Positions 1 through 38,018 of a stretch of DNA of 64,000 nucleotides are shown here, piece by piece. This DNA is from Cladocopium goreaui (taxonomy: Eukaryota; Sar; Dinophyceae; Suessiales; Symbiodiniaceae): positions 93,337-157,336 of the forward strand of contig CAMXCT020001382.1 of the NCBI GenBank assembly GCA_947184155.2. Direction: 5' to 3'. Under the pieces are notes generated by a model that was given only the letters and a program-made list of their open reading frames with translations, did not search any database and was not told the DNA's origin. The stretch's first letter is position 1. Each line of letters starts with the position of its first letter. The position numbers and the translations under genes were made by a program.

Positions 1-1
1 G

Positions 2-3000
2 CATAAGTTGTACCGATGGTTGGTTAGTCAAAGCCCTGCTTTCTTGCCTTACCACACGGTATATTTGGTGACGGACAATCGGGATTTGCAATCTGATAAG
101 GTCAAGTCTGAGCCTGGACTCAGTCATTGGCCAATGGTCGCTGCTTGGTGGAAAGAACGGTTACGCTATGTCGGCCCATATGGAGAACTCACCACAGTTG
201 TCTTTGTCCACATTTCAGCTGACACTGGTCTCCATAAGGTACACCCGACATGGGCAGGGACGTACATCCTTGATGCGTGTGTGTTCCTCTTCCCGGCCAT
301 CAACTTTGCATTGATTGACAGCGATTGTGTGCCAGTGACTCTCTTCGAGATACGGGAACTTTGGCTGGCGAGCACTGACCCAACCCATTCAGCTGCATCA
401 AGCACAGTTGTCAAGAGCAAACTGTCAAGCCCCATTGCGTCATCGCACAAACGTGCGCGATCTGTGGACACGGGAAGGGACATGCAGCAGCCTGGTCCAC
501 CTTCGAAGCTGTCTAGATCGCATAGCGCGGACCATCTTGCTGTTCGAAAAGCAGATCCACTGCGAGCCCCTCCGTTCACCTACGGTGCCAATTTGGCAGA
601 CGAAGTAGACTATGGTGATTCGCCAGACCCGAGTCCCCGAATGTCTCGTCGAGTGACGTCCAGCAGCGATGACTCTTCCCCGTCTGGGTCAGCTAAACCC
701 ACTCGGAAGGACAAAGCAGCCGTGGATGAAACTGCCACTGCGCCTAGGCCCAAAGGAGTCATCCTTGTGAGTGAGGCTTTCACTGAAATCAATGCTGGTC
801 TGGTCATTGTATTGGCTTCGGGTCATGAGAGTCCTGTACCTGTTACTGTCTTGGAGGACCCAGACACAGATCCTGACGAAATTGCCCGCGTTATTACCAT
901 TGCTTACCACAGACATGTCGAAGCCTACCTAGCTACTACATATCCACCTGCAGATGTCGAGAGAGCAGTCGCTAGTGGATTACTTGGCTCTCCTCTGCTT
1001 GGCACGTCCACACGGGTTACTGCAGATTGGTGCCATGCGTGGAGCTTGCTAGGCCAGTGGTCTGGACTAGTTACGTTTCCTGTCCCAGCCTCTGGAGTCT
1101 GGCCGCGCCATGGTCATTTACGGAAGATCCTTGATGGCTACCAAGGCAGGCAACCAAACTTCCATAAATGGGCTAGGCCCGCCTACGAGCAAGGGGCCCT
1201 TCCGACCCTTAGCCTGCTGCCCGGTGAGGTCAGTGTACGAGTGCTACCAGGAGACAAGATGTACCAAGCCATGGCAATCGAGCCACAGTACATGCGGCCT
1301 GTTATCCTTCATGGATTTGGCACCAGTGCCAAGAAAAGAATGCCGAACAGTCTCGCTGACCTCGCCCAATTTGGCTGGTTGCCGCTGGCTGCTGCTTTAT
1401 TTGGCACGAATGAATGGAAGCCCCAATGGCTACATCACAATTTCCTTCCAGTGGTTGGACTGCGGCTGCATGCCAAAGTGCCACCTCCCCCTCTCTCCCA
1501 AGCCCAACTGATCTTGCTGTGTGGATTGTGGCAACGAAAGGAACAATCGGAACCCTCATGTACATCGCTTCAGCAAGCAGCTCTCCTGAAGTTTGGTCTT
1601 CCGTTACCTTTCCGAGAAATGGCTAAATGGGAAATCACTGTCAATAAGCAGACTATAGATGTTGGAGAACTGTCCAAACAACGTTACATAGGAAGACAAC
1701 CCGAAGCTGAGATGCCTGCTACACTCAAGGACTCGGTTGACTGGGCATCCTGGGTCTTTTCCCTTGCAGAAGTCTGGCAAGATGACGCCCCGATGCAAGA
1801 CCGACCCCTTGAAGTGCATTGCAGTGGATTAGGAGGTGGCCTGCTTAGTAGCGAACACGAATATGATATTTTCCTGCAAAATCTTGCGCAAACAAAGGTG
1901 TATGGCCCATCGCTTGCGATGACAGACAATTGGGAAGAACATATCACCCAATTGGGCCTTACCAAAACAGTGCACGAATATGCTGTGTACCAGCTCCTTT
2001 CCACTGCTGATGGATGGACAGCTTGGCGTGATTTCCTCCCTGAACAGTTTTCTGATCCACAGCTGCTGCTCACGAGAGCGATCCGCCTCATTGAGGCCGC
2101 GACCATCCGGCCAGCCCACTCCAGGCCACCACATCCGACCTGGTCAACCGCGATTATGCAGATCTTCCGTTGCTACCATCCACAAGGGAAACAGCTTTTT
2201 CTGAAGTCATGTTTTCCACACTTGGTCACTACAGGGGACAACAGAGTGAGCAGGGACATTAACGTGTATGGTTTCTCGGCAGGGTCCTATACGGGCTTAG
2301 CAGTCCACGAGATCCTGAGTGAATTTGCTGCATTCCCTGGCCTCACTAAAGTTGCTGCGATTGCGACGCCGCCAGAGATGCTGCGACTTGCCACAGGCGA
2401 ACGCAGAGTCACACTGGTGCACTGCCTGGAAGACCGGCTATGTGTGTGGAGACCTGCTTCTCTGACTGAATTTAACTATCAGGTTGTTCTTATAGAGGGG
2501 CACCCCACCTGGAGTGGGCGTGCCAAACATTCCTATGGCCACTTGCTCTTCATTGACCTTGACGAAGGAGTCCACGAAATCCAGAGGCTACAAATCACCA
2601 CCCCGCAAGTTATTCCACATGGGGTACGGTGCGAGGGATTGCTGCGTGTACTCTCATGGGTTAGCTTTGACCTTCCTGAGCACCTTAAGACGACTCTAAG
2701 TGATTTGTTAGTAGCAGCAGGAGAAGGGAACATGGAGCTACAGAATATACCCATCGGTGGACGGGACATACGGGATGGTCAGCCTGAAACGGAAGCTGAC
2801 CTACAAGCAGCTCTGATTGCGATGATCCCCACACCGGGAGGCTCCCACGATGAGGGTGGGTTGCTGGTTCGCAACCTACTGGCGGAATTCCTGCGTGGGT
2901 TCTCATTACGAACCCTCATCTTCCTACTGGACATGGTTCTTCCGCAACTAGACGCGTACCATGTGGGACGGCAGCTCCAGCATCTCCAGCCCTGGGTCAG

Positions 3001-3949
3001 TGTGGAACTTGCGCAGCAGAAGAAGCGAGGACAAACAGGAACACGCTTGCAGCTCACCTACCAATACGAGGCTTATGCTGGGTTTCATGTTGTTCACCTA
3101 CATACTGATGGTGCCCCGCTCCTGCTGTTTAGTGCACCGTCGGATGTTCCAATGACCTCGCCGCGAGAACTCTGCGAGGCTGGGAATCTAGGCAACTTAG
3201 AAGCCAATGTGATGGCGGGCAGAGCATTACTGGGTGTCCTCCAGTTGCCAGATACTCAGCATCGGTGTGTCATAGTACTTGTACATGAAAAGGTGATGTC
3301 TAGCGGAACCAGTAAGAACCCTGCTCAGCGAGCTATCAAGCGCATTGCCCCGAAGTTGCTGGAGGTCGTTATCGTCTCGCTACCCATTGCTCGGACCTTT
3401 TGTGGGCGGCTCTTGGACCAATATCTCAAAACAATGGGTTACTTTGATCCTGCAAAGGACTGGCCGAAACCCATCGAAGACTATGCGTCCATGACCGTTG
3501 TATGGGAGGAGCTAGCTTTTCTGGGAGACACACGCAGCCGCCATGAACTCTTAGTGTTTGCGCAGGCTAACCAGTCGCGCTTACCACTGGCAATGGGCAT
3601 CGTGCAACCGCATATACCTGTTCGCCGCATGGCCAGCGAGCGCAAAACGCAGCTGACGGATGCATTAGTCAGAATATTGACACGGTTTTTGACACCAGCC
3701 ACAATATCAATGGATGGGGCCCATGACAGTTACTACTGTGAATATCTCCTTCCTTTAGCAGCCCACGGTGATGGACATGTCTTGACAGTTTCTATTGCAT
3801 TGTTACTGGCCATTCTGACAGGAAGATCTGACTTATGTATTGCCGGGGTTTTTGGTGCTGGCAAAACGCGGTCCCTTGCGGTCTTGCTCATTGCCCTGAG
3901 CTGCGAACTCAGGAATTTGTTGCCATCATCTATACGAAAGAAAATGTAG
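2..3949 (+). CDS. ORF2 of copy A, N-terminal part: GT8-like glycosyltransferase + alpha/beta hydrolase + helicase P-loop
   Basis: Open from the left edge, so the N-terminus is missing (copy B has about 150 more residues). Residues are counted from base 2. A GT-A/GT8-like domain is suggested by D106-S-D108 before LFEI, by NAGL at about 264, by EQGAL at about 396 and by HGFGTSAKK at about 437. These match the order of the DxD, FNAG, Q-rich and HxxGxxK boxes in retaining GT8 enzymes, which transfer sugar from UDP-sugars using Mn2+. An alpha/beta hydrolase follows, with nucleophile S759 in GFSAGS, D811 in EDRLCVW and H843 or H847 in KHSYGH. The segment ends in the helicase Walker A (G1282 to K1288-T). 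A frameshift near 3,905 moves the helicase into the next frame. Hydrolase and Walker A are clear; glycosyltransferase is a motif-level call. Confidence 0.75.
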   Translation, partial: HKLYRWLVSQSPAFLPYHTVYLVTDNRDLQSDKVKSEPGLSHWPMVAAWWKERLRYVGPYGELTTVVFVHISADTGLHKVHPTWAGTYILDACVFLFPAINFALIDSDCVPVTLFEIRELWLASTDPTHSAASSTVVKSKLSSPIASSHKRARSVDTGRDMQQPGPPSKLSRSHSADHLAVRKADPLRAPPFTYGANLADEVDYGDSPDPSPRMSRRVTSSSDDSSPSGSAKPTRKDKAAVDETATAPRPKGVILVSEAFTEINAGLVIVLASGHESPVPVTVLEDPDTDPDEIARVITIAYHRHVEAYLATTYPPADVERAVASGLLGSPLLGTSTRVTADWCHAWSLLGQWSGLVTFPVPASGVWPRHGHLRKILDGYQGRQPNFHKWARPAYEQGALPTLSLLPGEVSVRVLPGDKMYQAMAIEPQYMRPVILHGFGTSAKKRMPNSLADLAQFGWLPLAAALFGTNEWKPQWLHHNFLPVVGLRLHAKVPPPPLSQAQLILLCGLWQRKEQSEPSCTSLQQAALLKFGLPLPFREMAKWEITVNKQTIDVGELSKQRYIGRQPEAEMPATLKDSVDWASWVFSLAEVWQDDAPMQDRPLEVHCSGLGGGLLSSEHEYDIFLQNLAQTKVYGPSLAMTDNWEEHITQLGLTKTVHEYAVYQLLSTADGWTAWRDFLPEQFSDPQLLLTRAIRLIEAATIRPAHSRPPHPTWSTAIMQIFRCYHPQGKQLFLKSCFPHLVTTGDNRVSRDINVYGFSAGSYTGLAVHEILSEFAAFPGLTKVAAIATPPEMLRLATGERRVTLVHCLEDRLCVWRPASLTEFNYQVVLIEGHPTWSGRAKHSYGHLLFIDLDEGVHEIQRLQITTPQVIPHGVRCEGLLRVLSWVSFDLPEHLKTTLSDLLVAAGEGNMELQNIPIGGRDIRDGQPETEADLQAALIAMIPTPGGSHDEGGLLVRNLLAEFLRGFSLRTLIFLLDMVLPQLDAYHVGRQLQHLQPWVSVELAQQKKRGQTGTRLQLTYQYEAYAGFHVVHLHTDGAPLLLFSAPSDVPMTSPRELCEAGNLGNLEANVMAGRALLGVLQLPDTQHRCVIVLVHEKVMSSGTSKNPAQRAIKRIAPKLLEVVIVSLPIARTFCGRLLDQYLKTMGYFDPAKDWPKPIEDYASMTVVWEELAFLGDTRSRHELLVFAQANQSRLPLAMGIVQPHIPVRRMASERKTQLTDALVRILTRFLTPATISMDGAHDSYYCEYLLPLAAHGDGHVLTVSIALLLAILTGRSDLCIAGVFGAGKTRSLAVLLIALSCELRNLLPSSIRKKM

Positions 3950-5757
3950 CTGCCAAAGCACTTGCGGATCAATTGAGTGATCTCGCGCCCCCCACAATCA
4001 AGAGCTTTGGTAGGCTAATTGGACGCATGGAGGAAGGCAAAGGTGAAGCATATGCCTCCAAGATTGACGTTCGATGCAGTGATCGCAATAGAATCATCGC
4101 TCACAAGAATGTCCTCATTGCAACAGGTGGCTCGGCCACGGCGGAAATGGCGATGCGTTACTCCAGCTTTGGTCATTGGATCTCTCGCACCTGGCTTGCC
4201 TTCATGGATGAAAGTCAACAGTATGGCAACTACCATGAAATTGCAGCTCTCGCTGCTATTCAACAACCAACCCTAACTGTTTTCATTGGTGATCATAGGC
4301 AAACCCCAGGCGGATTGTCAAAAGGCCGAGCAGCTGCTGTCAATCGTCGCAAACTGTTGCAACGGCCGTTAGGGCTCCGAGCACTTGATAAGTCAGGAGA
4401 CTATCTCCCGCCGGCACGAATGACAGCACTTATAGCGCAGCTTTGGCCTGATGCGAGCCAAGATCCGGAGTCTGATCTCTTCAGTTTGCTGCGCCTTGCA
4501 AATAAGTCGCATAGTGGCCCATGGACATCCACTCCGCAAGACTACGAGCTGCCTGCTGCCCTGGGGCGTGTGCTTCACAGCCGAATCTCGTGCCAGCTGG
4601 ATGCACACAGCAGCCTGGTTGCGGCAGCTCTAGCAGTCCTGCTGATTGCCACAGCACCAGAGGAATTTGGAGTACCTGAGTGCACCACAACCCTTGCAGG
4701 GTTATGTGGACCTCACCGGTGGGGTATCATTCTCCCTAACAGCTCACGGGTCTCAATGCTGACTTACCAAGCTATTGTTGCAGTTCGATATCCTGAGTTA
4801 GTCCTCCACGAGCCCAATCACATCTACATTGGGCACTTCGTGCCACATGAGTCCACTGTGGCACAAGGAGGCTTCCGGACAGTACTGTGGAAGGCACCTA
4901 AAGATCTACGAGCTGCAGTCGAGGACGTCGTTGCTTTCTGCACTTATCTGAAGAATTATTATCGCAACTTGCAACAGGGAGCGACCTCGCAGCTGCTTGT
5001 CCTATGCAATCGTACGGCAGTGCACAACTTGCTGCTCCAACATGGTTTCCAGTCCGCTTGGTATGGTGGGCTTAGAGTCTCCACCACTTCCTCTGCCGCG
5101 GGAGCAACAGCACGCATTGCGGTCATTGTTCAAACAGGCGTTGGGTTTCTAAGTGGAGGACGTCGGGATGCAACAGCAGATGAGCGCGAAGACTGCTATG
5201 GGAGAGCAACTGTAGCGCTCACAAGAGCCATTGAACATACCTATATTGTTTCGCCTCTTGATATGGCAGGCATGATTGGCATGGCTCAGACACTAGGAGT
5301 GTACCATTATGGCTACTTCACTCTGAAAGGCCGCGACATTCAGTACCATGGCCCTTCAAAATACCCCAGTGACAAAAGTGCCATACTGGACTGGGGATTG
5401 GTGGACCCATTTATTTCCCAAGATAAACCTCCCCTTGCTATTGCCATGATAGTGACCACCAATGGCACGCGAGTGTGGCGACGATATCGGTTGGTTGTGG
5501 CATGCAGAGACAAGCTACGGCTACCCCCTGATGTCCTTGCAGCATTAGAGTCCCGCACACGTGATCATGTGCTGACGACCAGCGGGTTTTTCCCTTGCTC
5601 GATTGATCGGGAATACTTGTATGGTTATGCTGCTGATGGGTATAGATCACCTCTCTGGATCTGTGCGGCCTATAATGGGTCCCCAGCACTTGTTCATCGA
5701 CATCGAGGCCACAAGGTCTTTTTTCACGTGGGTATACGGATCGGCAACTTGTCGTAA
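3905..5757 (+). CDS. ORF2 of copy A, middle part: superfamily-1 helicase core
   Basis: Continues the polyprotein in the next frame after an indel near 3,905. Motif Ia is the IIYTKEN segment just after the shift. Walker B reads DESQQYG (about 4,207-4,227), motif III GDHRQTPGG (about 4,288-4,314) and motifs V/VI GRATVALTRA (about 5,200-5,229). These are the ATP- and nucleic-acid-contacting motifs of SF1 (UPF1/AAA_12-like) helicases. The Walker A lysine lies in the preceding segment, so the ATPase is split by the frameshift in this copy. After motif VI comes a beta-rich region with a repeated FFPCSIDREYLYGYA box present in A, C and E. A second indel near 5,740 shifts the frame before the IPGIHYFDAHR box. 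Confidence 0.8.
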
Positions 5758-7325
5758 TACCGGGTATCCACTACTTCGATGCCCATCGGTTGCAACCGGA
5801 CCGCTTGAACACATTGGATCGCCGGATTGATCCTGGGTCCATGAATTTTGCAAGCCCCGAGGGTGCAGGAGACACAGTGAATGACCCCTCCTCGGATGAG
5901 GAAGCGGCCTCTACCGATGACGAGAGTGACCCAGAGGACCCTACAGTTGCGTGGTGTCCACCTATACCTGATGCAGCTGAAGATCCTTCTGAAGATGAGA
6001 TCGCGAGTGCAGCTGACAAGCTAGCTATCCTGATCACTAATGTCCAACCTAACGGAAACCCTTTTTGCATGCCTGAAAACCTTGGAGTTCTCCCACAGTT
6101 ATGGCTACAGGCGAGATTGACGTTGTCATTGACTGCCATCCAAGAAAAGTTTTCGCGCATCCTGCTGAGTGTGGCCTGTGAACTGTGGTTGCGTGGACAA
6201 AGTGCCACAATGATAGAGGATGTCCTCCTGCAGACGGCAAGGGCTCTCACAATTCGTTTGGCAGAAAAGCTCGCCCAAGCGATGAGCTCGTTGATGAGAT
6301 TGGCTGAATGCATGGTGACTCCAGAAACTGAATGCTTGCTGTATGCCACGTACTGGTTTCGGCCCATCCTTTCTGAGCTCATCAGCTCGGCCCTTGAGAG
6401 CTCTGAGGTGAACCGGAGTCGAGCGCCGAGTGGCCCAGTAAAAGTCCTGGTCACTGATCGGCCGCATCGACGAACTACTGGGCTAGTGGACCTTACGAGT
6501 GGTGCCTCTGCCCTATTGGCATGGTTCCCGGCTAGCTGGGCTAGCAAAATTGCTCCCAAACTTCTTGAGAATGCCCCTGAGAATGCGCAGAAACCACAAG
6601 AAATCAACATCGCATGCCCGAAACGTTCCTGTGACGAGACTCCAGTGGAAGGAGCAAAACAGCTGCTCCAAGCAGTCAAATTTGCTGCCAAAACCATGCC
6701 TGGTTTTCGTCTTGGACTGGATGAAGACTTTCAAATGGCTGGATGCTTCCAGGAGCTCATCCATGGATACACATCAGGGCTCGTTGAACCATCCATGATG
6801 CGAGGTCTCCAACCACTGGGACCGACTCGCACTACTCTGGAAGTGATCGTACCTTCTCAAGAAGGGCTTACACCTGAAAAATGGAAAGAAACAGCCACAC
6901 TGTGCCCACTTGATTGGCCTTCCAATTTCAGTCTGTTGTTATTGTGGCATACCAATGGGAGCCTGCATCAAACGGTAGCGCGACTCAGGAATCAACTGTC
7001 GCACAGCCATATGTTTGCTGAATGGACAGTGCATATCAACAGATTTGTGGAGCGTGTTTTATTCCAGCAACCTGCAGTTTATGTAGCTGGACATGCCTTG
7101 CAAGCCAGCTTGCGGGAACGAACCTTCCCAGACAGGAGAGTCCGCAAGAGGGTTCCTCCGGAAGATCTGGATGAACATCAACGGGCGATTCGAGCGCTAC
7201 ATCAGCGAGCTATTGCTCAGCAAGCAGCTAACCCAGTTTCGTTTGCACTCACCAATGAATGGAACGACACTATCACATCGGACAAGAAGCATCACTTGGA
7301 ACATTTCATGAGAGGTACGACATGA
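5742..7325 (+). CDS. ORF2 of copy A, C-terminal region of unknown function
   Basis: Begins with an IPGIHYFDAHRLQP box that corresponds to LPGIYFFDGWRLHP in type-2 copies. Next are an acidic Ser/Asp/Glu stretch (about 5,890-5,950) and a long, mainly alpha-helical region of about 450 residues with conserved blocks such as TYWFRPILSEL and CPLDWPSN. It is nearly collinear with 26,459-28,066 of copy C and ends at a TGA at 7,323-7,325. I do not recognise the fold. No reverse transcriptase, endonuclease or zinc-finger motif is visible. The first ATG of the frame (5,841) is probably not a real start, because the homologous type-2 protein runs straight through. Confidence 0.6.
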   Translation, partial: RQLVVIPGIHYFDAHRLQPDRLNTLDRRIDPGSMNFASPEGAGDTVNDPSSDEEAASTDDESDPEDPTVAWCPPIPDAAEDPSEDEIASAADKLAILITNVQPNGNPFCMPENLGVLPQLWLQARLTLSLTAIQEKFSRILLSVACELWLRGQSATMIEDVLLQTARALTIRLAEKLAQAMSSLMRLAECMVTPETECLLYATYWFRPILSELISSALESSEVNRSRAPSGPVKVLVTDRPHRRTTGLVDLTSGASALLAWFPASWASKIAPKLLENAPENAQKPQEINIACPKRSCDETPVEGAKQLLQAVKFAAKTMPGFRLGLDEDFQMAGCFQELIHGYTSGLVEPSMMRGLQPLGPTRTTLEVIVPSQEGLTPEKWKETATLCPLDWPSNFSLLLLWHTNGSLHQTVARLRNQLSHSHMFAEWTVHINRFVERVLFQQPAVYVAGHALQASLRERTFPDRRVRKRVPPEDLDEHQRAIRALHQRAIAQQAANPVSFALTNEWNDTITSDKKHHLEHFMRGTT

Positions 7326-10032
7326 CCCCCCCAACACCATCTCCCATCTTTTCTCTATTTGTGTCCACCTTGTCTCTTCTTTCCCCCTTTTCTCTTTTCT
7401 GTTTCACCTCGCTTTGTCTTTCACACGACATTGGTTTTTGTTTCATCAGCAACGGAAGTGGGAGTTTATTTAAATCACTATTGGGTCTTTCGTCATTTCT
7501 ACTTCAGGTTACTGTCCATACTGGTGTGTCTGTCCAAAGATGTGACAGGTGCATTGGTATGCAGTCGGGGACACAGCTTTTCCTCATTTATAATTGTCAG
7601 GTTCCTCATGACCCATGCCTGGGAGGCTACTTCCACACTGGTGTGTCTGTCCAACGACGTGACAGGTGCACTGGTATGCAGTAGGTGACACAGCTTCTCC
7701 TCATTTATACTTATCCAAATGTTCTATCACATGCCTGGCCCCTACTGATTCAGACCTCCAACAGCCAGTATCCACACTCATGTGTTTTCATGTGGGAGTA
7801 ATAGCCTAGGCATAACAAGCCGAGCAGCATGCGTTCTCCTTGCACTAGTGCTTAGAATGAGTTGTCCAGCCGAGAGCTTAGATAACACTAAGGCCTCCTC
7901 ACACCATGCAGCCCACTGCATTAGTGCATGCTCGCACTCGGTGCCTGACAATCATAGGTGATGGAGTAACTGGTTTCGCTTTCCCCTGACATAATACTGA
8001 CGAAACTACCCTTCTCTTACCCGTCCCACTAGCTAAGGTCCGTGAACTCATCTTTTTATCCAGAGTTGATGCAATGTGCAGAGCTACAGTAGGCGTAGTG
8101 CCTCGGTTGGTGATTCTTTTCTGGTTGATTGTTTGGTCACTGCCTGCCGTCGCCCTCCCTCCCCCTCGGATGGTCCTCGTTGGCGCCTTGGTCCAGGTTA
8201 TACTGGTCCCTCCCTCTGGGTATCGTTGCTTCCGGCGATGGCCTGGTTGCCGTGCCTCTGCGCTTGGAGTGTTTGTTGCGCACTGTTTCCCCCCCTCATC
8301 ATGTCTCATGGCAACAAAGGCCTTGGCCCTGTGTGGGGATCTTTCCCTCTACACCATGCTTCATGTGTTGTTGGGGTGCTGTGTGCTCCCTCAAGGTATT
8401 CATCATGGTATGATCCTTGTCCCCTTCCTGGACTCCGCTAAGACACGTTCGTACCCCTTCTAGTGCGTGTGTGTCCTCTCTCTCTCTGTCCTGTGCTGCC
8501 TCCTGGCTCCTCTCCTCGTTTTCTCTGCTGGCTTGTTGTATTGCATGGGTTGTTCTTTGGCCGCTCCCCCCTCTTTGCGTCCCCCTTGATGGCAGGTTTC
8601 GTTTTGTTTGGGCGTACGGTGTTTTTGCTTCCTCTGTTGCCTGGATACCGAGGGTATAGCTCTGCACAGTAACCCATTTTTTCACCATGGCCACATTGAT
8701 CTCATCCTGTTGTGACGAAGGATTTATCCGAGGTGGGACAGCCTTTGCTCGCCGTCCCCCCCCCCTTTCTTTTAGTTGAGTTGATCCCCTTTTGAATTCG
8801 TTTGTTTGTTTGTTTGTTTGTGTTCTATTTGTCTGGTGGCTTCCTCTTTGGCTATATTGGGATGGGCCCCTCTCTCTCTGTTGTTTGTTTCCTTTGTGTT
8901 TTCTTTAGGGGCGGTAGATTCCCGGTAGAGCCATGGACTAGGCTGCACTGCAGTGAGCTCTACTGGCGCTGTCCAGTTGTGCTTCCTGCAGTTCAGTCTG
9001 GAGCGCCCGAGTGCAGCAAAGCCTGCCCACATGGTTCGTTGTGCGGATTTTTTGTATTGCTCTGGCCTATAGCCCACTCAATGGGAGAGTGGCTTTGTCT
9101 GGAAGATACAGATGCCTTCCTGGGCATCCGGTCCTCTCCGCAGAACTTGCTGGGACGATGATGCCTAGTGACTCCTGTCTGAGTATCTGGTGCTGGCGCA
9201 GCGAACCACCTCATCATTGATCGTTTTAGTGCACAAGACTTACAGCAATGCAAATGCGACTTTTGTATACCTACCTGCAGTATCATACTGGAAGTGCTCA
9301 CGAGCCCATGGTATAGTCGAAACATCAGTTTTCTGTCATGGCCGTACTGAGCCGGTCAGGCCTTTGCATTTTCACCCACGGCCTTAGGGTCTTGGGCACA
9401 ATCACGTGACGGTTTCTGCAAGTGCTTACAATGTTGCAGGCTGTCTGTGTCCTCCTCCCCGTTCTGGGGGGGAAATAGATTACAGTCCCTTGCGGTGGTG
9501 TATGCTGATAGGAATAGACTGCCTAGCATATGCTGTACCATACAGTGTGAACAGCAGAGCAGCGGAAGATTATTTATTGACAAATCGTCTATGCTGGCGG
9601 CCTTTGTTCCACACATCAAGTCTGCCTCCAAAGATGGACTCTCTTTGCTGCTCTCAGGTAAGACGATCTGGGCAATCAGGTACAACTCAGTGCACCGCCG
9701 CAATTAATTAGTTTGCATGTTTTTGATGATGATACAGTGGCTCAGGTCGCTGTATCCAAGGCAAATCTGAGAAATTTTTGTGTTGTTTCTTGTTGGGCCC
9801 TGCCCCTTTCTGTGTTGCTTCGCTGTTTTGCTTGGTGGCGAAACGCAAATCTGGCTGGGGGATTTGCGGGTCGTTTTTTGGCTGTGATTCTTGTTGTTTG
9901 ATTAGTTTCTCATGATGATTTGCCTGAGATTTTTGGACCACACGTGTCCTGTACACTACTGCTTTTCACTGCTTACGCAATTGTAAGGACCGTGCCTAGT
10001 GCGAATCGGCCAAACCGGAGGAAAAAAAAAAA
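7326..10032 (+). repeat. Type-1 non-coding 3' tail, copy A
   Basis: Pyrimidine- and T-rich stretch with no supported gene. Landmarks shared with 28,067-30,499 and 47,470-49,688 are a CTGTCC...GACAGGTGCACTGG block (present twice here, about 7,520 and 7,637), a GCAACAAAGGCC...TGTGTGGGGA block (about 8,310), a GGGCGGTAGAT...CCATGGACT block (about 8,910) and GCGAAACGCAAATCTGG (about 9,838). A (TTTG)n run lies at about 8,798-8,821. The tail ends with a stem-loop and A run. Confidence 0.8.
9987..10011 (+). promoter_or_regulatory. 3'-terminal stem-loop of type-1 tail (copy A)
   Basis: GGaCCG pairs with CGGCC around a variable loop, 10 bases before the A run. The same structure is at 30,453-30,478, 49,641-49,668, 52,922-52,948 and 53,504-53,530. 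By analogy with LINE and SINE 3' hairpins it is a candidate reverse-transcriptase recognition site. Confidence 0.5.
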
Positions 10033-11385: not shown

Positions 11386-11536
11386 GAGGTGCGTAAGTGC
11401 ATACATACTACCTGTCTATCTTTGTCAGTGCGTCCGTGAAATTTGGCTAGAGCTTACCCGCCTCTGTTTTTCCTGTCCACCACCCTGTTTGCTGCCGAAC
11501 GTCCATTAGCGCTGTACAGCATTTCGGACCTGATTC

Positions 11537-14314: not shown

Positions 14315-15017
14315 CCATACAGACAGCTAGTACTGCGTGCACCTGACTGTGTGAAAGCACCTGATCAGTGCCATTTCTAATGCCGCCTACTCCACAGATG
14401 CGCCAAGAGAAAAGCAGCTGCGTGCCAGGATAATTCCCCCCAAACCTACTGTAAGGGAGAGTACCCACTCAAGTATGACCCCCATAAATTGGAGTAAGAG
14501 GATTTAAGGGGATTTTTGTATGCTCAGCTGTCTTGGTTAGGCGTGTGTCCCAGGTCCTGTCACCGTTAGTCATCTCAACTTCTGTCGAACTAACATTTAC
14601 TTTGGGCAAAGAAGGTTGCATCAACTGTCAGTGGCTCAATTGTTCGCACTGCAGCTTTTGTGGCTCCACTAGTTTTCATAGCTAGGTCAGCCATCCGACA
14701 TCAATTCGCATACTAAGGTGTAAGACAAACCCTGATTGTTTTGTTTCCTACCTGTTTCACCTCCAACGAATTGGCCCCGCAGCGGGGAACCTTGACCCCG
14801 GGTGCCGGGTGTTCGGGGTTTCCCTAGCCCAGCCAATCCTGTTGACACATTTTGCACTCACTGCTCATATAGCATTCACTATTTTCGCCTGGTCACTTGG
14901 CACCTGACACCCGGGTACCGGCTGTTCAGGGTCAAGCCGGCGTCAACATGCTGCAACAGCTTATGGTACCGGCTGTTCAGGGTCAAGCCGGCGTCAACAT
15001 GCTGCAACAGCTTATGA
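14315..15017 (+). other. ORF1-ORF2 spacer of copy B
   Basis: About 700 bp without a gene. It holds a perfect 51-bp tandem duplication at its right end and GC-rich CCCCGGGTGCCGGGTGTTCGG sequence near 14,795-14,815. ORF2 has no ATG upstream of 15,120 in frame, so an unseen exon, trans-splicing or a non-ATG start may lie here. Confidence 0.4.
14914..15015 (+). repeat. Perfect 51-bp tandem duplication
   Basis: Two identical 51-bp units (14,914-14,964 and 14,965-15,015), each beginning GGTACCGGCTGTTCAGGG and ending CAACAGCTTAT, directly before the ORF2 frame of copy B. An identical pair implies a recent duplication. Confidence 0.9.
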
Positions 15018-24070: not shown

Positions 24071-24834
24071 CACAATGGTGCCTACCGGAACCAATTTTGA
24101 TGCAGTATGATGATTGGAAAAGCAGATCTGAGCGGACTCTGAGTGTGCCCTGAGTGCCGTAGCCTCGACGTCTTTTTCACCTTAGATCATGGTTCACTCT
24201 CATGTTTCACTGCGGTAGTTTTTTCTCACCACTTTGTTGTGACCCGGCGTTGTCGGTGTTTGCTTCAAAGTGTCAGGGTGAATGTCATGCCGTGAAGGCT
24301 GCTCTTTGTGATCTCGGGGATCCTGGCTGGGGGGATCCCTGGTTTCCGCATTGAGCTTTGTTGCTTTTTGCACCCTTCAAGTGGCCCATGGTGTTTTTGT
24401 GGCTTTTTCGTTGTTGTCTTGTATTATGGGCCTGCGTAACATGACACATAAGTTGTCATCTGCATGCGCTGAGATGATACTAAGCTATCACCTCTTGCCT
24501 CAATAGATCTTTTTCACCCATCACTGGAACCTGACACGTCACTTCCGTGAGGTTGTGTGTTTTTTGGTTTGTTTGCTTGTTTGTGTTTTGTGTGGTTTGT
24601 TTTTGCTTGTGCTTGTTTTTTGTGTTGTTTTTGCTTTTGGTTCTTTGTGTTTCGGTTTTGTTCTTTTGAACGTGACCAGGGAATAGGACTATGTATCGGT
24701 CCTCTACCAGTTGCATGTTGCGGCCCTACAGCTTGGCCCCTGCGTGAATTAATTAATTAATCTCACATGCAACATGATTGGACACATGTTGAACGACCTG
24801 GCGAAAGCCATACGGCGTTGGACGGAAAAAAAAA
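24071..24834 (+). repeat. Type-2 non-coding 3' tail, copy B
   Basis: No gene. Shared with D (33,531-34,287), F and X. Landmarks are CCGTAGCCTCG...TTTTCACCTTAGATC, GGGGATCCTGGCTGGGGGGATCC, a T/G-rich tract, (AATT)n near 24,748, a GNRA hairpin and a terminal A run at 24,826-24,834. Confidence 0.8.
24799..24810 (+). promoter_or_regulatory. GNRA-capped hairpin near type-2 3' end (copy B)
   Basis: TGGC-GAAA-GCCA, 15 bases before the A run. Same stem in D (34,253-34,264, loop GGAA), F (- strand, 35,584-35,573, loop GAAA) and X (- strand, 47,150-47,140, loop AGA). Candidate recognition structure for copying. Confidence 0.5.
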
Positions 24835-25407
24835 CTGGTTGTGGGTTTCTTAGTGGTGAGCGCAGAGATGCCACTGCAGATGAACGTGAAGACTGCTATG
24901 GGAGAGCCACTGTCGCGCTCACGAGAGCCATTGAACATACATACATTGTCTCGCCTCTCGACATGGCAGGCATGATTGGGATGGCACAGACATTAGGGGT
25001 GTACCACTATGGGTACTTCACGCTCAAAGGTAGGGAGATCCAGTACCATGGCCCCACAACCTACCCGAGCGACAAAATTGCTGTACTGGAATGGGGACTA
25101 GGGGCGCCCTTCACCCCACAAGATAAACCCCCTCTAGCTATTGCCATGATTGCTACCGTCAATGGTACACGGTCTTGGAGAAGGTATCGGTTGGTGTTGG
25201 CACGTAAAGAGAAACTACGTCTCTCCTCTGCGGCACTGGCAGCGCTCGAGTCTCACACGCGGGCTCATATGCTGACAACCAGCGGTTTCTTTCCCTGTTC
25301 AATTGATCGGGAATACTTGTATGGTTATGCAGCTGACGGGTACCGATCTCCACTCTGGCTTTATGCTGCCTATAATGGACACCCAGCACTAGTGCATCGA
25401 CACAGCG
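24835..25407 (+). pseudogene. ORF2 fragment of copy C (helicase motifs V-VI onward)
   Basis: Open frame entering from the A run, with CGFLSGERRDATADERED and motif VI GRATVALTRA, then the FFPCSIDREYLYGYA box. It is nearly identical in protein to 5,140-5,710 of copy A but with many silent differences. It stops being homologous after VHRHS, where the hairpin-rich cassette begins. The frame resumes at 26,459 (DKIFFHSG...). There is no start codon of its own, so it is a truncated remnant. Confidence 0.8.
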
Positions 25408-26458
25408 GCTGGGTAGGGGGATGGGGTCCCCAATACCATGGCCGCAACGGGGGGAGGTGGACCCGAGAGGGTCCGGGGGGACGTTAAACTGTTATATAGC
25501 GCTGGGGAGTTGCTGAAGGCCCCCGTCCCTAACGAACCGTGAATTAACACGGTACCTTGGTACCCCCTAGTCGGCGTGTGTTGACATGTTGGGTTGCTCC
25601 TCATGTCACACCCTCGTTTGTGTTTGCGCACATCCTTGGGTGATCGTGCGGTATCTCGGGGTTCTCCCGGACCGATCGGTACACACGTGGTACGGGACCG
25701 ACGGGTCTCACCTTACCTTGTGTCTAGGGTAGCAACACCCAATGATGACACGGGGGAACAGGCAAGGTCGGTGAACCTCTTAGAGACTTGGGGACTTGTC
25801 TCGAGAGGGGTCAACGGGGCAACCCGTTGGCTAACGGTCAATATTCATCGTTGGGTAGCTAAGCTCGCGGTGGACAAGACCGTCGGTTCCTCCCTAACAG
25901 TGTTAGGGTCCTGTCGCAAGACAGGTGTATCCCCCTGGGATACATGGGATCGCTAACGACTGGGTCACCGACCGGTTCACTCTCAACCTTCGGGGAGAGT
26001 GGGCTCAATGTACAGTCTGGCCACAGTGAGGACCTTGTTTTTGGCTCTAAGGTCCGAGCTGTGCTCCATGGGGACTGGGGTCACTGAAAAGGTGACTAAG
26101 ACTGTCCACTCCTTTCTTGGATCGTCTTCTCCGGTAGTCGCTGGAGTCCGGGAACCTATGGGGGCATCATGAGTTGGTCTCTCTTGGATTGAGTGGTGAT
26201 CATCTTGGGTGAAACGAACGGGTTCCGTCTCCACGTCCATTCGGGGTGTACGGTTTACGCTGTACATCCTTGGTGGAAATGAATGGGTTCGGTTCCCACG
26301 TCACTCGGTGAGTGGATCCACTCTCCTTGGTTTGACCTGGGACTCGTGGTGTGGAAAGGGTACCGCCCCAGGGTGCGCCTGGTGCTTGCGTTGGGCCATG
26401 CTTCTGCGTGGATTTCGCCTTTTTGGCGTGGCCCTGCACCGGGAGCCCAAAGGTACCA
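25408..26458 (+). mobile_element. 1.05-kb hairpin-rich cassette inserted in copy C
   Basis: Interrupts the ORF2 codons between VHRHS and DKIFFH. A 4-bp direct repeat AGCG (25,404-25,407 and 26,459-26,462) flanks it and removing one copy restores the frame. It is GC-rich and unlike its host. It contains a string of compact hairpins, several with GNRA or UUCG loops (25,812-25,829; 25,892-25,908; 25,910-25,925; 25,926-25,944; 25,978-26,001; 26,310-26,323). Terminal inverted repeats are not convincing and the boundaries do not give GT-AG. An ORF at 25,594-25,956 (120 aa) and others are not recognised. It could be a structured-RNA-derived insert, a small transposon or an introner-like element. Confidence 0.55.
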
Positions 26459-28066
26459 AGCGACAAGATTTTCTTTCATTCGGGAATCCAGGATAGGCAA
26501 CTTGTTGTGATCCCGGGCATCCATTATTTTGACGCCCACCGAATTCAACCGCTGCTTGTGAAGTCGTTGGAACATCAAATTGATCCGAGGTCCATGAAAC
26601 TCGCAGGCCCTGAGGGTGCAGGTGATACTGTGAATGACCCCTCATCTGATGAGGAAGAAGTTTCCACGGATGCTGAAAGCGATCAAGAAGACCCCACGGT
26701 CGCATGGTGCCCACCGATACCTGATGCAGCTGAAGACCCTTCTGAAGCTGAGATCGCAAGTGCGGCTGACAAACTGGCTATCTTGATCTCGCATGTCCAA
26801 CCCAGTGGAAACCCCTTCTGCATCCCCGAAAACCTTGGAGCACTTCCACCGTTGTGGCTACAAGCGAGATTGACATTGTCTTTGACTGCTATTCAAGAGA
26901 AGTTTGCACGCATCTTATTGAGTGCTGCCAGCGAGCTGTGGTTGCGAGGGCAACTAGCCACTGTGGAGGATGTCCTCCTACGAGTTGCAAGGGCTCTCAC
27001 AATTCGATTGGCAGAGAAGCTAGCCCAGGCGCTGAGTTCATTGATGCGATTGGCTGAATCCATGGTAACTCCAGAAACCGAGTGCCTTTTGTATGCTACA
27101 TATTGGTTTCGGCCCATCCTCTCTGAACTTATCGGATCTGCCCGGGAAAGCTCGGATGTGAACAGAAATCGAGCGCCTAGTGGCCCAGTCAAAGTATTGG
27201 TCACAGATCGACCGCATCGACGCCTCACAGGAGTAGTTGACCTTACAAGTGGTGCTTCTGCCCTCCTGGCATGGTTTCCAGCGAGCTGGGCCAGCAAAAT
27301 TGCTCCGCGATTTCTTGCTAATCCTACTGAAATCAATATCACCTGCCCGAAACGAGCATGTGATGAGACTCCCATGGAGGGAGAGAAGCAAACGCTCCAG
27401 GCCGTCAAGTTTGCCGCCAAAAACATGCCTGGCCTGAATCTTGCACTTGACGAAGACTTCCGGCGAGCAGGCTGCTTTGAAGAGCTAGCACATGGGTACG
27501 TAATGGGGCTTGTTGAGCCGTGCATGATGCGAGGTCTCCAACCAGTGGGACCGAGTCGTACCACTCTGGAAGTTATCATCCCATCGCAGGCTGGGCTCTC
27601 TCCGGACAAGTGGAAAGAAACGGCCACGTTATGCCCATTAGATTGGCCTTCTAACTATAGCCTCCTGCGACTATGGCACACTAATGGAAGTCTTCACCAA
27701 ACAGAAGCGAGACTCAGGGACCAGTTGTCGCACAGCCACATGTTTGCTGAATGGACAGTGCACCCTCAGAGGTTTGCAGAACGAGTCTTGTTTCAGCAGC
27801 CCGCGGTATATGCGGCAGAGCATGCTTTGCAAGCAAACTTACGGGAGCTAAATTTTCCGGACAGAAGAGTCCGCAAGAGAGTTCCTCCAGCAGACTTAGC
27901 GACACACCAAGAGGCGATCAGGACACTTTACCAACATGCAATCGGACAGCAGCGAGTGAACCCAGTCTCATTTGGGCTCACCAATGAGTGGCTCGACACT
28001 ATCAAATCAGACAAACAACATTATCGTGAACACTTCGCGAAAAGTATGACAGGATCCCTTACCTGA
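26459..28066 (+). CDS. ORF2 C-terminal region of copy C
   Basis: Resumes the type-1 polyprotein after the insertion (DKIFFHSGIQDRQLVVIPG), then the acidic PSSDEEEVSTD stretch and the helical C-terminal region. It is open without a frameshift to TGA at 28,064-28,066. Compared with copy A it has a short deletion of the NAPENAQKPQE stretch and scattered substitutions. It provides the cleanest reading of the type-1 C-terminus. Function unknown. Confidence 0.6.
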   Translation, partial: SDKIFFHSGIQDRQLVVIPGIHYFDAHRIQPLLVKSLEHQIDPRSMKLAGPEGAGDTVNDPSSDEEEVSTDAESDQEDPTVAWCPPIPDAAEDPSEAEIASAADKLAILISHVQPSGNPFCIPENLGALPPLWLQARLTLSLTAIQEKFARILLSAASELWLRGQLATVEDVLLRVARALTIRLAEKLAQALSSLMRLAESMVTPETECLLYATYWFRPILSELIGSARESSDVNRNRAPSGPVKVLVTDRPHRRLTGVVDLTSGASALLAWFPASWASKIAPRFLANPTEINITCPKRACDETPMEGEKQTLQAVKFAAKNMPGLNLALDEDFRRAGCFEELAHGYVMGLVEPCMMRGLQPVGPSRTTLEVIIPSQAGLSPDKWKETATLCPLDWPSNYSLLRLWHTNGSLHQTEARLRDQLSHSHMFAEWTVHPQRFAERVLFQQPAVYAAEHALQANLRELNFPDRRVRKRVPPADLATHQEAIRTLYQHAIGQQRVNPVSFGLTNEWLDTIKSDKQHYREHFAKSMTGSLT

Positions 28067-30499
28067 CCCACCCTTCTTGGGTCTACCCCTTTCTACCCCC
28101 TGCTTTCCGCCTTCTCCTCCCTTTTTATTTGAATGCTTGTTTCACTGTCCCGACGGCCGTGCGTGCTGCTGTACTACAGTTGGGATCAACATTAGATTTT
28201 TGTGACTTCAGCCGGGATAGTTTGTCTTGGTGCTGCTGGTGTGTCTGTCCAGAGACATGACAGGTGCACTGGTATACAGTTCGGCTCTCAGCTTTTCCTC
28301 ATTTTTCGTTGTGAGATCTAGCCTGCTCTGTTAGCCCATTTCCCTACATCATCCTCTAGCCCCTCAGTAGAGAGCTTAGACCATACGAAGGCAGGCTACC
28401 AACGAGGGAGCCCGTTAACTTGGTAGGGGCATAATCCGTGCTAGGTCTTAACAACCATAAATGGGTGACTAAACAGATGCTGTCGTGCCCACCCCTGGTC
28501 TGAAGATCAAGACAGTCCATCACCTCATTTTTGAATTCGTTTGTTGTTTCCCAGGCAATTCCTTCTGACAGAGCTTGCTGCCCTATTACCTTGGCCGTGT
28601 GTTTGCCTTTCTTCTGTGTTGTTTTTGTGTCCGTTGCTGCCCCTACTTTGTGGAAGCCCCCCCTGCCCCCTCGGATAGCTCCCACTGGGCGTCTTGGTCC
28701 AGTTGTTGGTTACTGGTGCCTCCCTCCAGGTATCTGTTGCTCCTGGCGACGGCTTGGTTGCCTTGCCTTTGTGCTTGGGGTGTCGTGGTGCTTTGTTTCC
28801 CCTCTTCGTTGTGTCTCGTGGCAGCAAAGGCCTTTGGCCCTGTGTGGGGATTTATCCCTCTACACCACGTTGCATGCGCTGCTGGGGTTCTCTGTGCTCC
28901 GTCACTGAGGTATTCATCTGCGTATGATCCAGGACCCCCTGTGTGACTCCGCTAAGGCACTCTTGTATCCCCTCTGGTACATTTGTGTCCTTCCTCTGTC
29001 TGTCCTCTGCTGCCTCCTGGCTCCTCTCCTTCTCTCTTCTTTGGTGTTTTCGTGTGTGTGTGCGTGTGGTTCTGCCCTGCCCCGCTATGCTTCCCCCCTG
29101 TACTGGCTTGTTTGGTTTGCTGGGTCGATTGTCACTAAGGATTCCGAAATGCTATTTGCTTAGATGTGCTACTAAGGTCGCCATGTGTCGGCTTGCTGTG
29201 ACTAAGGATTTGCCTGCTTTACGGTGGCTTCTGGCTGCATCTTGTCCTCTACTTACTTGAATTCGGTTGGTACGGTTGTTGCTTTTGGTTTTTTGTCTGG
29301 CTTCTTCCTCGGGGTGGGCCTCTCTCTTTCTGGTGCGTTTCTGTTGTTTTTTCCGAGAGGGGCGGTAGATACCCGGTTAGAGCCATGGACTGGGCTGCAC
29401 TGCAGCGAGCTTTATTGTCCAGTGGAGCTCTCTGCAGTTCAGTCTAGAGCGCCCGCGAGCAGCAAAGTCTGCCAACATGGTTCGGTGCGTTGATGGGACG
29501 TAGTGATTCTGCTAATGGCCCACTCTAGGGGAGAGTGGCCCTATGTGAGATGCACTGCGAACCTCTGGAACATCTGACTTGCTGCAGGTTTTTGCTGGGA
29601 CGATGACACCTTGTGAATCCTGCTAGTCCATCTGGTGCTGGTACAGCGCACCTAGTCACCCTTTCAAGTTTGTGGCTTGAGCACGACTGCCATGCGAGAG
29701 CGGCGCAATTGTGTACAGGTCGCTAGTAGCAATCTTTCTTTGCTTGAGCCTACCCTCTGCACGAGTATATCTTATTCATCCGCAATGACCTTACGGAGAG
29801 AATCAGTTTTTTGCGGAAATCGTGTACCATTGGCACCTTCCCAGGTCCTCTTGGTTTCCTACGGTATGACGGCATCTGTGATGAGTTACAGTTATAGTCT
29901 TGCATGACCTACAGGCTGTCAATACCTACCCCCCCTTGAGGGGGGTATTGAGTCACATCGCTATTGCGGCAGTATCTTACTCCAGAGACAGGGTTCCAAC
30001 TACGCTGACCATTACAGGACCAACATTGACAATGAGAATGGCAATGGGCACCAGCTGTGCTATACAGCTACTTCTGCTTTGCCAAATTTTCTGAGAGCTT
30101 GCGTGACAGTCAAGGTGGTTTCTGGATGCTGACAGTTCTCGCACGTGGATGACGTTAGATGAACTGCCGCAATAGATAATTAGTTTGCATGTTTCTAAAA
30201 GTGATACTGTTGAATCGTTTTCAGTATCACATGGCAAATCTAAGTTGGGTGTTTTTGTTGGGCCTTGCCCCGTTTCGGTGTTGTTTCGCTGTGTTGTTTT
30301 TGTGGCGAAACGCAAATCTGGCTGGGGGATTTGCGGGTCGCTTTGGTTTTTGGTGTGTCTTGTTCTTGCTTTGAACTGATTTGCCATTCTTACAGGCCAT
30401 ACGTGTCCATTTTTTGTTTGTTCTCAGATTTTCACTGCTTACGCAATTGTAAGGACCGAGCCTAGTGCAATATCGGCCACGCCAGAGGAAAAAAAAAAA
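28067..30499 (+). repeat. Type-1 non-coding 3' tail, copy C
   Basis: Same landmark order as 7,326-10,032: the CTGTCC...GACAGGTGCACTGG block (about 28,245), GCAGCAAAGGCC (about 28,822), GGGCGGTAGAT (about 29,361), GCGAAACGCAAATCTGG (about 30,303), stem-loop (30,453-30,478) and A run. ORFs here are short and not conserved in frame among the three tails. Confidence 0.8.
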
Positions 30500-32676: not shown

Positions 32677-33128
32677 GCCACTCGAGGTAACGTAGAGTAC
32701 CCAAGTTTCCCATACATGCATTCAGCCTGTAACTTGACCTAGGTTGAGCGGCGTTGTCACCATGGGGTACTCATGGTTGACTACTGCCCGCTGCGACTAC
32801 CTTTGCTGTCAGCATGCCGGAGCCAGTATGGGACGGGAGGCGGTGGGGGGGCGGTTATAATAATCCTTTTCAGGGTTTTTAACTTGGTTTGTTCGTGTTG
32901 TTCTACCTTAATTGTTGCATGGTAGTGTAGTGCGATGTCAAAGTACATCTAGCCATGGTGCCCGTCGCCGTTTGACCTTCGCTCAACCAATCTTTCGACC
33001 GGCCAAATGACCTTCACCACACCTCCCCATGCCCTTTCTCGACCAAGGTTGCAACACGGTGAGTGTCAACTGAATGCCCTGAGGCTTTACGTCTACCGAA
33101 AAACCTGTAGACAACTTAGTCCTTTGGA
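32677..33128 (+). other. ORF2-ORF3 spacer of copy D
   Basis: About 450 bp, matching 23,214-23,668 closely. Contains the G-rich tract (32,830-32,854), here with a seven-G run, then TTATAATAAT. No gene seen. Confidence 0.6.
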
Positions 33129-33530
33129 ATGGAGCGACCGACTCCTATCAAAGACGCCGCTGTCCATCGTCTTGCAAAGTCCATTACTCAACTGACCCTC
33201 TGCCAGGTCACTACCAGCGAAGTCGATGATGCCACCAAACTTCTAGAGAAGGCCCGACAGAAGCTTCAAGGCATCCAAAACATCCCATCCCAGAGGGTTA
33301 TTGACCTTGAGGCGGCTATACGCCAACTCCGTCAGATTGGCTGTATCTTGGATAGTTGTACAATATCTGCCAGTTACGAAGTAACCCAGGCGCAGAAAGC
33401 CATACTGCAGCTTCACCATACAGCCAGGGGAGCCAGCACATCATCAGAAGAACTCAATGCACAGATATCCCCACGCACTGATGACGAGTACAATCTCCCA
33501 TACCATGAAGACGAATTGCAAGAGCACTAG
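33129..33530 (+). CDS. ORF3 of type-2 copy D
   Basis: 133 aa, starting at the same ATG as copy B (MERPTPIKDA) and ending at the same acidic EDELQEH. It differs from B at only a handful of residues (for example K for Q, L for M, VI for GN, S for C). It is intact although its own ORF2 is truncated and frameshifted, so the integrity is inherited from the parent copy. Helical coiled-coil-like composition; function unknown. Confidence 0.65.
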   Translation: MERPTPIKDAAVHRLAKSITQLTLCQVTTSEVDDATKLLEKARQKLQGIQNIPSQRVIDLEAAIRQLRQIGCILDSCTISASYEVTQAQKAILQLHHTARGASTSSEELNAQISPRTDDEYNLPYHEDELQEH

Positions 33531-34287
33531 CACAGTGGTGCCTACCGCAACCGCAATTTTGATGCAGTATGATGATTGGAAAAGCAGTTCTGAGCGGACT
33601 CTGAGTGTGCCCTGAGTGCCGTAGCCTCGCTGTCATTTTCACCTTAGATCATGTTTCACTCTCCTGTTTCACTGCGGTAGTTTTTCTCACCACTTTCGTT
33701 GCGACCCGGCTTTGTCGGTGTTTGCTTCAAAGTGTCAGGGTGAATGTCATACCGTGAAGGCTGCTCTTTGTGATCTCGGGGATCCTGGCTGGGGGGATCC
33801 CTGGTTTCCGCATTGAGCTTTGTTGCTTCCTGCACCCTTTGAAGTGGCCCATGGTGATTTTGTGGTTGGTCCTGTTGTTGTTTTGTTTTATGGGCCTGCG
33901 TCAACATGACACATAAGTTGTCATCTGCATGCGCCGAGATGATACTAAGCTATCACCTCTTGCCTCAATAGATCTTTTTCACCCATAAACTGGAACTGTC
34001 ACGTCACTGCTTTGTGGTTGTGTGGTTGTTTGCCTTTTGTGTGTGTTGTTTTTGTTTGGTTTTGTTTTTGGTGTTGTTGTTGCTTTTGGTTCTTTGTGCT
34101 TCGTTTCTTGTTCTCTGATGAACGTGACAAGGGAATAGGACTATGTATCGGTCCTCTACCAGTTTACTTTTGCGGCCACTACAGCTTCGGCCCCTGCGTG
34201 AATTAATTAATTAATCCCATATGCAACATGCTTGGAAACATGTTGAACGACCTGGCGGAAGCCATACGGCGTTGGACGGAAAAAAAA
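33531..34287 (+). repeat. Type-2 non-coding 3' tail, copy D
   Basis: Matches 24,071-24,834. It contains the uninterrupted sequence CACCTCTTGCCTCAATAG (about 33,953-33,970), the empty counterpart of the target site occupied at 47,450-49,708. Ends with the hairpin at 34,253-34,264 and the A run. Confidence 0.8.

Positions 34288-37986: not shown

Positions 37987-38018
<32 letters not shown>

Follow-up and report, generated by a model that had tools for sequence, protein, structure and literature searches.

Retroelement units encoding a glycosyltransferase-hydrolase-helicase-like polyprotein in Cladocopium goreaui follow a LINE in their longer copies

CR1-type long interspersed nuclear elements (LINEs) carry an esterase in their first open reading frame (ORF1), and HeT-A consists of units without a reverse transcriptase (RT) in head-to-tail chains. 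In several clades of non-long-terminal-repeat retrotransposons, ORF1 encodes a GDSL esterase (PMC5408684). The Terminons of bdelloids are giant Penelope-like retroelements (PMC6431247), and LINEs with a DNA methyltransferase (DNMT) ORF, named SymbioLINE-Dnmt, have been described from Symbiodinium (PMC5890265). Here we compare with these systems a family of repeats in a 64,000-nucleotide (nt) stretch of the dinoflagellate Cladocopium goreaui (contig C1382, positions 93337 to 157336; referred to as the window), whose units, of types A and C, encode a very long second ORF (ORF2). A first-pass annotation had placed these units in a new RT-less class akin to HeT-A. Such a class is not supported, since the 3' end of a LINE stands upstream of the unit at six of the seven full-length 5' ends seen in the genome.

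The genome assembly (1.17 Gb) contained 2,834 first-look candidates for ORF2, and all 48 that were scored matched. The sampled sequence comprised 25 kb around six copies (22 kb for one at a contig end) and 2.5-kb stretches at the 5' side of 12 more (0.5 kb for one). Among these 18 copies, C2985 is nearly identical to C4976 (99.6%), and the two were counted as one. A full-length C-unit 5' end was seen in seven distinct copies (C1425, C4976, C32, C1299, C2424, C3402, and C343); C946 and C3710 start later, and in the remaining eight the 5' end lay outside the stretch or was not recognized. The full unit measures 15.5 to 15.8 kb, and ORF1 (552 amino acids [aa]) and ORF2 (2,735 to 2,736 aa) are both open in C1425 and C4976. 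Directly before the unit, C4976, C32, C1299, C2424, C3402, and C343 all carry the same LINE 3' tail (TTCCCACCCAGGGGAAA.GGTGG), followed in all six by a short A-rich spacer with longest runs of A7 to A10. Because C1425 starts with A10, this spacer may belong to the unit behind the LINE tail.

The first-pass annotation had suggested looking for longer copies in which an RT precedes ORF1, and this search was positive: an endonuclease (EN) and an RT are present in C4976 and C2424, the two copies followed far enough. These copies are collinear, at 94% identity, over 12.2 kb; about 11.4 kb of this alignment precedes the unit. The upstream ORFs of C4976 matched RVT_1 (E = 1.4e-13) and the RNase H family RVT_3 (9.6e-5). 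The pol frame of C2424, 2,094 aa long and split in two in C4976, matched the EN family PF03372 (3.6e-10) and RVT_1 (4.9e-14), both over the cut-off; RVT_3 was over the cut-off in C4976 and below it in C2424 and C32. The first LINE frame (2,419 aa, seen whole in C4976) contains methyltransferase- and protease-like motifs by eye. A 361-aa piece of it matched PF00145 with an E value of 0.18 and 11.6 bits, versus a cut-off of 22, and the whole frame matched nothing at an E value of 0.1. In C4976, the distance from the first position of this frame to the terminal A9 is 29.8 kb, with the outer 5' end lying beyond the stretch seen; the 3' end of C2424 lies outside the fetched stretch. In C32, homology to C4976 begins inside the last (RNase H) ORF of the LINE and runs past the tail into the unit, as expected of a composite that lost its 5' part. 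The LINE part of C1299 is interrupted by an 8.9-kb insertion, and the LINE was seen over 1.1 kb in C3402 and 0.25 kb in C343. The ratio of nonsynonymous to synonymous substitution rates (dN/dS) in the LINE frames was 0.11 to 0.19. Genome-wide, RVT_1 gave 4,498 first-look candidates, of which 150 were scored and all 150 exceeded the cut-off, with open frames of up to 2,133 aa; given this abundance and these frame lengths, many LINEs in the genome may be intact.

This LINE resembles SymbioLINE-Dnmt in its large methyltransferase-like ORF (here by eye) upstream of a pol ORF that combines Exo_endo_phos, RVT_1, and RNase H, as well as in target site duplications (TSDs) and purifying selection, to the extent that these are set out in PMC5890265. 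It differs in what follows: the published elements are presented there without mention of ORFs after the RT ORF, and the words helicase and glycosyl are absent from the main text of that paper. The published elements are also described as lacking a poly-A tail, whereas an A-rich run stands behind the LINE tail here, and the methylase match reported above is below the cut-off. The LINE and methyltransferase-like elements found here fit those of Symbiodinium as portrayed in PMC5890265, and the LINE load fits the account in PMC8045281. The new aspect is most likely a LINE of a known kind with an unexpected downstream polyprotein.

The adjacency of LINE and unit and their co-divergence are direct observations. 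Pairwise identities of the LINE 3' parts covary with those of the unit 5' parts (r = 0.85 for six copies; 8 of 720 label permutations were as high), with the same two subgroups of three copies each in both parts. Most likely, the family represents either a giant multicistron LINE, at least about 30 kb in length, or a LINE that has a fixed partner, rather than a new RT-less class, and the RT-less appearance of the units most likely results from 5' truncation. On balance, we favor the reading that the units derive, by 5' truncation, from a giant LINE-type retrotransposon in whose longer copies the EN-RT LINE lies upstream. That it is a single LINE of four or five cistrons and about 30 kb or more, with virus-like coding capacity and also spreading as a 15.8-kb subunit, has an even chance of being correct. 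Such an element would read, from 5' to 3', a methyltransferase/protease-like ORF (the 2,419-aa frame), an ORF with APE endonuclease, RT, and RNase H (the 2,094-aa frame), a stem-loop and A-rich spacer as an internal tail-like signal, ORF1 (a 552-aa frame in the C lineage; two ORFs, one with ankyrin repeats, in the A lineage), and last the ORF2 polyprotein of about 2,700 aa, combining a GT-A glycosyltransferase, an alpha/beta-hydrolase of presumed esterase type, and a superfamily 1 (SF1)-like helicase.

Several observations weigh against one composite element. The C unit C1425 stands without the LINE: between the two copies of its own 16-bp TSD, TTGTCTATAGCCCAAC, it runs from an initial A10-GGTTTC to a terminal A7 (the frames flanking it look copia-like by eye). 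A tail-like stem-loop and an A-rich spacer stand between LINE and unit, and the six spacers differ. The covariation comes from six copies only, with the LINE of C343 compared over 243 to 244 nt, and the between-group pair C2424/C3402 (unit part, 0.846) exceeds the within-group pair C4976/C2424 (0.824). One TSD around LINE plus unit was shown in no copy, the outer 5' end being beyond the stretches seen. Neither of the two A units examined showed a LINE upstream on its own strand: none was seen in the 10 kb preceding A0, an A unit just left of the window, and the next unit, A1, follows A0 itself. Finally, PMC5890265 presents SymbioLINE-Dnmt as a LINE that stands by itself, has TSDs, and lacks poly-A.

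The lone C1425 unit can be read as a composite cut short at the A-run or as an independent element mobilized in trans; because this ORF1-ORF2 unit inserted without the LINE, at least some copies may have obtained their RT in trans. The corresponding alternative, a nonautonomous retroelement of 15 to 16 kb moved in trans by the EN-RT of a DNMT-type LINE, is a serious but less probable one. The adjacency would then arise when the enzyme, at the 5' end of the unit RNA, switches template to the 3' end of the mRNA encoding it, or lands in the A-run. The perfect TSD of C1425 agrees with it, as do the abundance of RVT_1 in the genome and the stem-loop plus A-rich run in which both LINE and unit end. 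Units also follow other tails, namely, an A-type tail before the C unit in C946 and the A1-C1, C1-A2, and A2-C2 junctions in the window. It is harder to reconcile with the presence of the same LINE family at six of the seven full-length 5' ends and with the matching, covarying subgroups, and the 3' stem-loops of the LINE, A, and C are different sequences.

The intact ORF2 frames are 2,555 to 2,744 aa long. Frames of 2,600 to 2,744 aa are open in 10 of the 48 scored genomic copies (two of the ten being near-identical), and the A-lineage copy A0 is open over 2,555 aa. AlphaFold models gave a GT-A glycosyltransferase fold for residues 171 to 531; the glycosyltransferase boxes noted by the first-pass annotation are thus borne out at the level of the fold, and their assignment to GT8 specifically is not established. 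The predicted hydrolase was confirmed as an alpha/beta-hydrolase fold at residues 550 to 943, of the carboxylesterase/LYPLA type by fold. As in CR1-type LINEs, a hydrolase domain is thereby found with a LINE, but here it is a carboxylesterase/LYPLA-type domain inside an ORF of about 2,700 aa and not a GDSL ORF1. The SF1 helicase claimed downstream of the hydrolase stands as motifs read by eye in both lineages; its Pfam matches (AAA_19, AAA_30, DEAD, and Viral_helicase1) all fell below the curated cut-offs, and the AlphaFold model of the C-terminal half of the helicase and the C terminus was poor (pLDDT of 44). The ORF2 parts matched no Pfam or NCBIfam family above cut-off and no PDB sequence convincingly (one match at E = 0.36).

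ORF2 is under strong purifying selection, an observation made directly from coding comparisons, with dN/dS values of about 0.06 to 0.14 in most of them. In 12 comparisons within the window, three of which had saturated, infinite dS and are excluded from the ranges, values were 0.057 to 0.091 for C1/C3 and 0.075 to 0.077 for A1/A2, and one short C1/C2 stretch gave 0.18. The value for A0/A1 was 0.093. Among five genomic copies with long open frames, ORF2 dN/dS was 0.082 to 0.138 (10 comparisons); ORF1 dN/dS was 0.186 to 0.232 in four copies with ORF1 at the same place (6 comparisons). A host gene family, domesticated or ordinary, from whose mRNA retrocopies were made could also combine a complex domain set with strong purifying selection. 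This explanation is improbable: each unit has two separate ORFs, 5' truncation is variable, units form head-to-tail chains and have TSDs, one genome holds the 2,834 first-look candidates, and the same LINE recurs upstream. In addition, the pattern or relic of the dinoflagellate spliced leader (DinoSL) was not above chance in the window.

Homologues of ORF2 are plentiful in public data: three partly overlapping searches of about 8,000 candidates each found at least 100, at least 34, and at least 167 proteins at an E value of 0.001, with clusters of up to 517 members. The C terminus lies at the same residue as in the yardstick in 8 of 50 aligned database proteins. In the protein tree, long branches meet and the deep order is unsure. 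One exact pattern match was noted in a bacterial metagenome-assembled genome (L001). Searches of viral and genome contigs found no relative, the viral search having used one protein and being able to reach close relatives only. Endornaviruses encode a glycosyltransferase and an SF1 helicase, a combination that, together with Viral_helicase1 among the weak matches, would suit an integrated RNA-virus-like polyprotein copied by LINEs. Slightly less probable still than a host gene family, this explanation is opposed by the viral contig result, by coding selection across many genomic copies, and by the linkage to the EN-RT LINE. No RNA-dependent RNA polymerase-like domain was found in the Pfam-scanned parts of ORF2; the structural model covering the last 650 residues is poor (pLDDT of 44), and these residues could conceal a polymerase.

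The repeats in the window are genuine, unusual retroelement copies. The two unit types share about 29% aa identity in ORF2 (window self-comparison), and the two lineages proposed by the first-pass annotation hold, with open frames elsewhere in the genome; within the window, every ORF2 copy is broken by frameshifts or stops or is truncated. On the plus strand the chain is gapless, comprising A1 (to 10032), C1 (10033 to 24834), A2 (24835 to 30499), and C2 (30500 to 34288). Each of these units closes with a stem-loop and A9 to A11, and the next begins at once, at a differing point of its own sequence. The chain extends to the left, where A0 ends in A9 at C1382:87483 and A1 begins at 87484. Simple tandem duplication does not account for the chain, as neighbors alternate between two diverged types. 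As proposed earlier, the units end in a 3' stem-loop and A run and form chains, with A9 to A11 read directly at 10032, 24834, 30499, 34288, and 49688. At the first three of these junctions the next unit follows immediately, at 34288 an opposite-strand A-lineage remnant follows, and at 49688 there is a TSD.

Like LINEs, the units have a common 3' end with a stem-loop and/or A tail and are variably truncated, since A2, C2, C3, A5, and C1 begin at different unit points. TSDs are likewise present, with 20 bp around A5 and 16 bp around C1425. None was found for six other window tails tried (three of them of chained units), nor for C4976 beyond the A-run. The absence of an RT fits the window units, where the only RT among 91 frames (from 174 of at least 90 aa) and 20 larger frames, some in both sets, was copia-type, at about 54.9 kb; it is not a trait of the family, whose long copies have the EN-RT-RNase H LINE directly upstream.

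The RT-less units chained head to tail resemble HeT-A, but an RT-bearing longer form exists here, and the two tested insertions are internal, with TSDs. With Terminons, as portrayed in PMC6431247, the family shares a size of tens of kilobases, accessory enzyme ORFs (including esterase/lipase), 5'-truncated copies, and head-to-tail arrays. It differs from them in its APE-endonuclease LINE, stem-loop/A-run ends, TSDs, and other extra domains. Its RT scores as RVT_1, alongside an APE endonuclease domain. No hammerhead was scored in the window, and no Rfam family reached the gathering threshold. Head-to-tail chains of 5'-truncated units of mixed lineage would also be expected of a telomeric element that, like Terminons or HeT-A, extends chromosome ends. 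This is the least probable of the explanations considered here, given that A5 inserted internally in another unit and C1425 in sequence judged copia-like by eye, each with a TSD, and that the junctions read showed no obvious telomere repeat, no search having been aimed at such repeats.

Unit A1 (1 to 10032, plus strand) is cut by the window start. Its ORF2 (2 to 7325, plus strand; start left of the window) lies in frames 2 to 3949, 3832 to 5757, and 5676 to 7325, covering the GT-A, hydrolase, helicase, and C-terminal regions. The terminal A11 (10022 to 10032, plus strand) follows the stem-loop GGACCGTGCC...AATCGGCC. The 5' end of A1 is homologous to the inside of the C-unit 5' untranslated region (UTR) from position 596 (78% over 218 nt); A1 is therefore probably 5'-truncated as well. 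Before ORF2, A0 and A1 have an ORF of up to 429 aa and an ankyrin-repeat ORF (Ank_2, 9.8e-9 and 4.9e-6), with dN/dS values of 0.07 and 0.24 for these ORFs. The N-terminal part of the ankyrin protein (L029:1759-2970 and L028:7509-8666) appears ubiquitin-like by eye. Upstream of A0, a distantly related pol is encoded on the opposite strand. The motif GTAGTTAT(C/T)GCTGA occurs in the LINE 3' UTR, the C-unit 5' UTR, and the A1 start (L016, L010, and L028).

Unit C1 (10033 to 24834, plus strand) lacks about 1.07 kb of the 5' end present in the full-length C1425: window position 10030 aligns with C1425 position 6240, and the C1425 unit begins at 5173. C1 ORF1 (12743 to 14314, plus strand) spans 523 aa when counted from the first ATG in its frame of 553 aa, has a P/Q/S-rich second half, and gave no Pfam match. 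C1 ORF2 (14948 to 23213, plus strand) has several frameshifts or stops (frames 15018 to 17633, 17851 to 19467, 19612 to 20301, and 20211 to 23210); its start ATG is at 14948 or, owing to a short duplication, 14999, and relatives start with MLQQLMTPNRF. The terminal A9 (24826 to 24834, plus strand) follows the stem-loop AACGACCTGGCGAAAGCC...GGCGTT. A2 (24835 to 30499, plus strand) is 5'-truncated within ORF2, ends in A11 (30489 to 30499), and has a 1-kb insertion at about 25409 to 26440; the stretch from 26275 to 26463 is 87% identical to one just before the first A0 ORF (L029:37-225). C2 (30500 to 34288, plus strand), 91% identical to C1, is 5'-truncated within ORF2 at C1-equivalent position 21037 and ends in A9.

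The right border of the chain is the A3 remnant of A-lineage ORF2 (34287 to 35484, minus strand). C3 (38502 to 47136, minus strand) is 5'-truncated within ORF2 and lies head to tail after C4, at a junction without an A-run. The C4 3' end (47126 to 47469, minus strand) is split by the insertion of A5, its other part lying at about 49689 to 49972. Of A5 (47470 to 49688, plus strand), the 3' UTR alone is left, with an A10 tail and the perfect 20-bp TSD GGTAAATTGACGCAAGAGGT at 47450 to 47469 and 49689 to 49708. An A-type 3' end with A9 (52710 to 52967, plus strand) is preceded by an ORF1-like frame at 50592 to 52504, and a second short A-type 3' end (52968 to 53549, plus strand), whose own 5' end was not seen, follows directly. 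The ORF1-like frames at 50592 to 52504 (plus strand) are globular, then S/P/T-rich, then KGKGKGK, without similarity to C1 ORF1.

The terminal stem-loops of A and C differ, and both lineages have in their 3' UTR an internal hairpin whose loop is of the TGGCTGGGG type. It lies at 9844 to 9868 in A1 (plus strand; loop TGGCTGGGG at 9852 to 9860) and at 24316 to 24340 in C1 (plus strand; loop TGGCTGGGG at 24324 to 24332, stem GGGGATCC/GGATCCCT). Five of the eight stem pairs have changed on both sides between the lineages, and 98.4% of cells pair, in an alignment of eight distinct rows that are effectively two lineages. Cells paired, cells changed on both sides, and the covariation score were all beyond shuffled alignments (0 of 500), and no slid version reached the score; the number of pairs with a change on both sides (187 of 500) and of further pair types (316 of 500) was within the shuffles.

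Other elements share the window. At 53560 to 57190 (plus strand) is a degraded copia-type pol, with an RVT_2 match below the cut-off (9.4e-4, 54857 to 57190) and an RNase H-like motif by eye. Frames at 59122 to 63674 (plus strand) resemble, by eye, a tyrosine recombinase, a gag-like protein, and the start of a methyltransferase, the first two without a Pfam match; by eye, this set is like that of the DIRS-type elements with DNMT described for Symbiodinium. A minisatellite of 78-bp units with an 8-bp periodic flank (36000 to 38400) produces long meaningless ORFs in several frames. The CpG observed/expected ratio did not discriminate among these sequences, being 0.62 to 0.64 in the element (for the C4976 unit, its first 4.5 kb only) versus 0.61 in the copia stretch and 0.53 at 58 to 64 kb.

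For the favored giant LINE-type retrotransposon, we propose that LINE and downstream unit are carried on one RNA. The EN-RT protein would nick the target and reverse-transcribe from the 3' stem-loop/A-run by target-primed reverse transcription. Copying would often halt early and drop the RT end, which may be why many copies look RT-less. The A-runs of older copies could serve as landing or template-jump sites and so give rise to chains; the A10 at the C1425 5' end would fit a jump onto a tail or inheritance from the source. The helicase may aid the copying of a very long RNA, and the glycosyltransferase and hydrolase may act on a host envelope, membrane, or ribonucleoprotein.

Full-text searches aimed at such elements found no title or abstract opening describing a glycosyltransferase-hydrolase-helicase retroelement. 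Truncated copies can mimic an RT-less class. If the proposed composition is correct, the known coding content of a LINE family would be roughly doubled, and such elements could explain part of the unannotated ORFs in genomes of this kind. With a helicase inside the element, the family would offer a testable case for the retrotransposition of very large RNAs and for the reasons that a glycosyltransferase and an esterase are maintained by strong selection in a retroelement.

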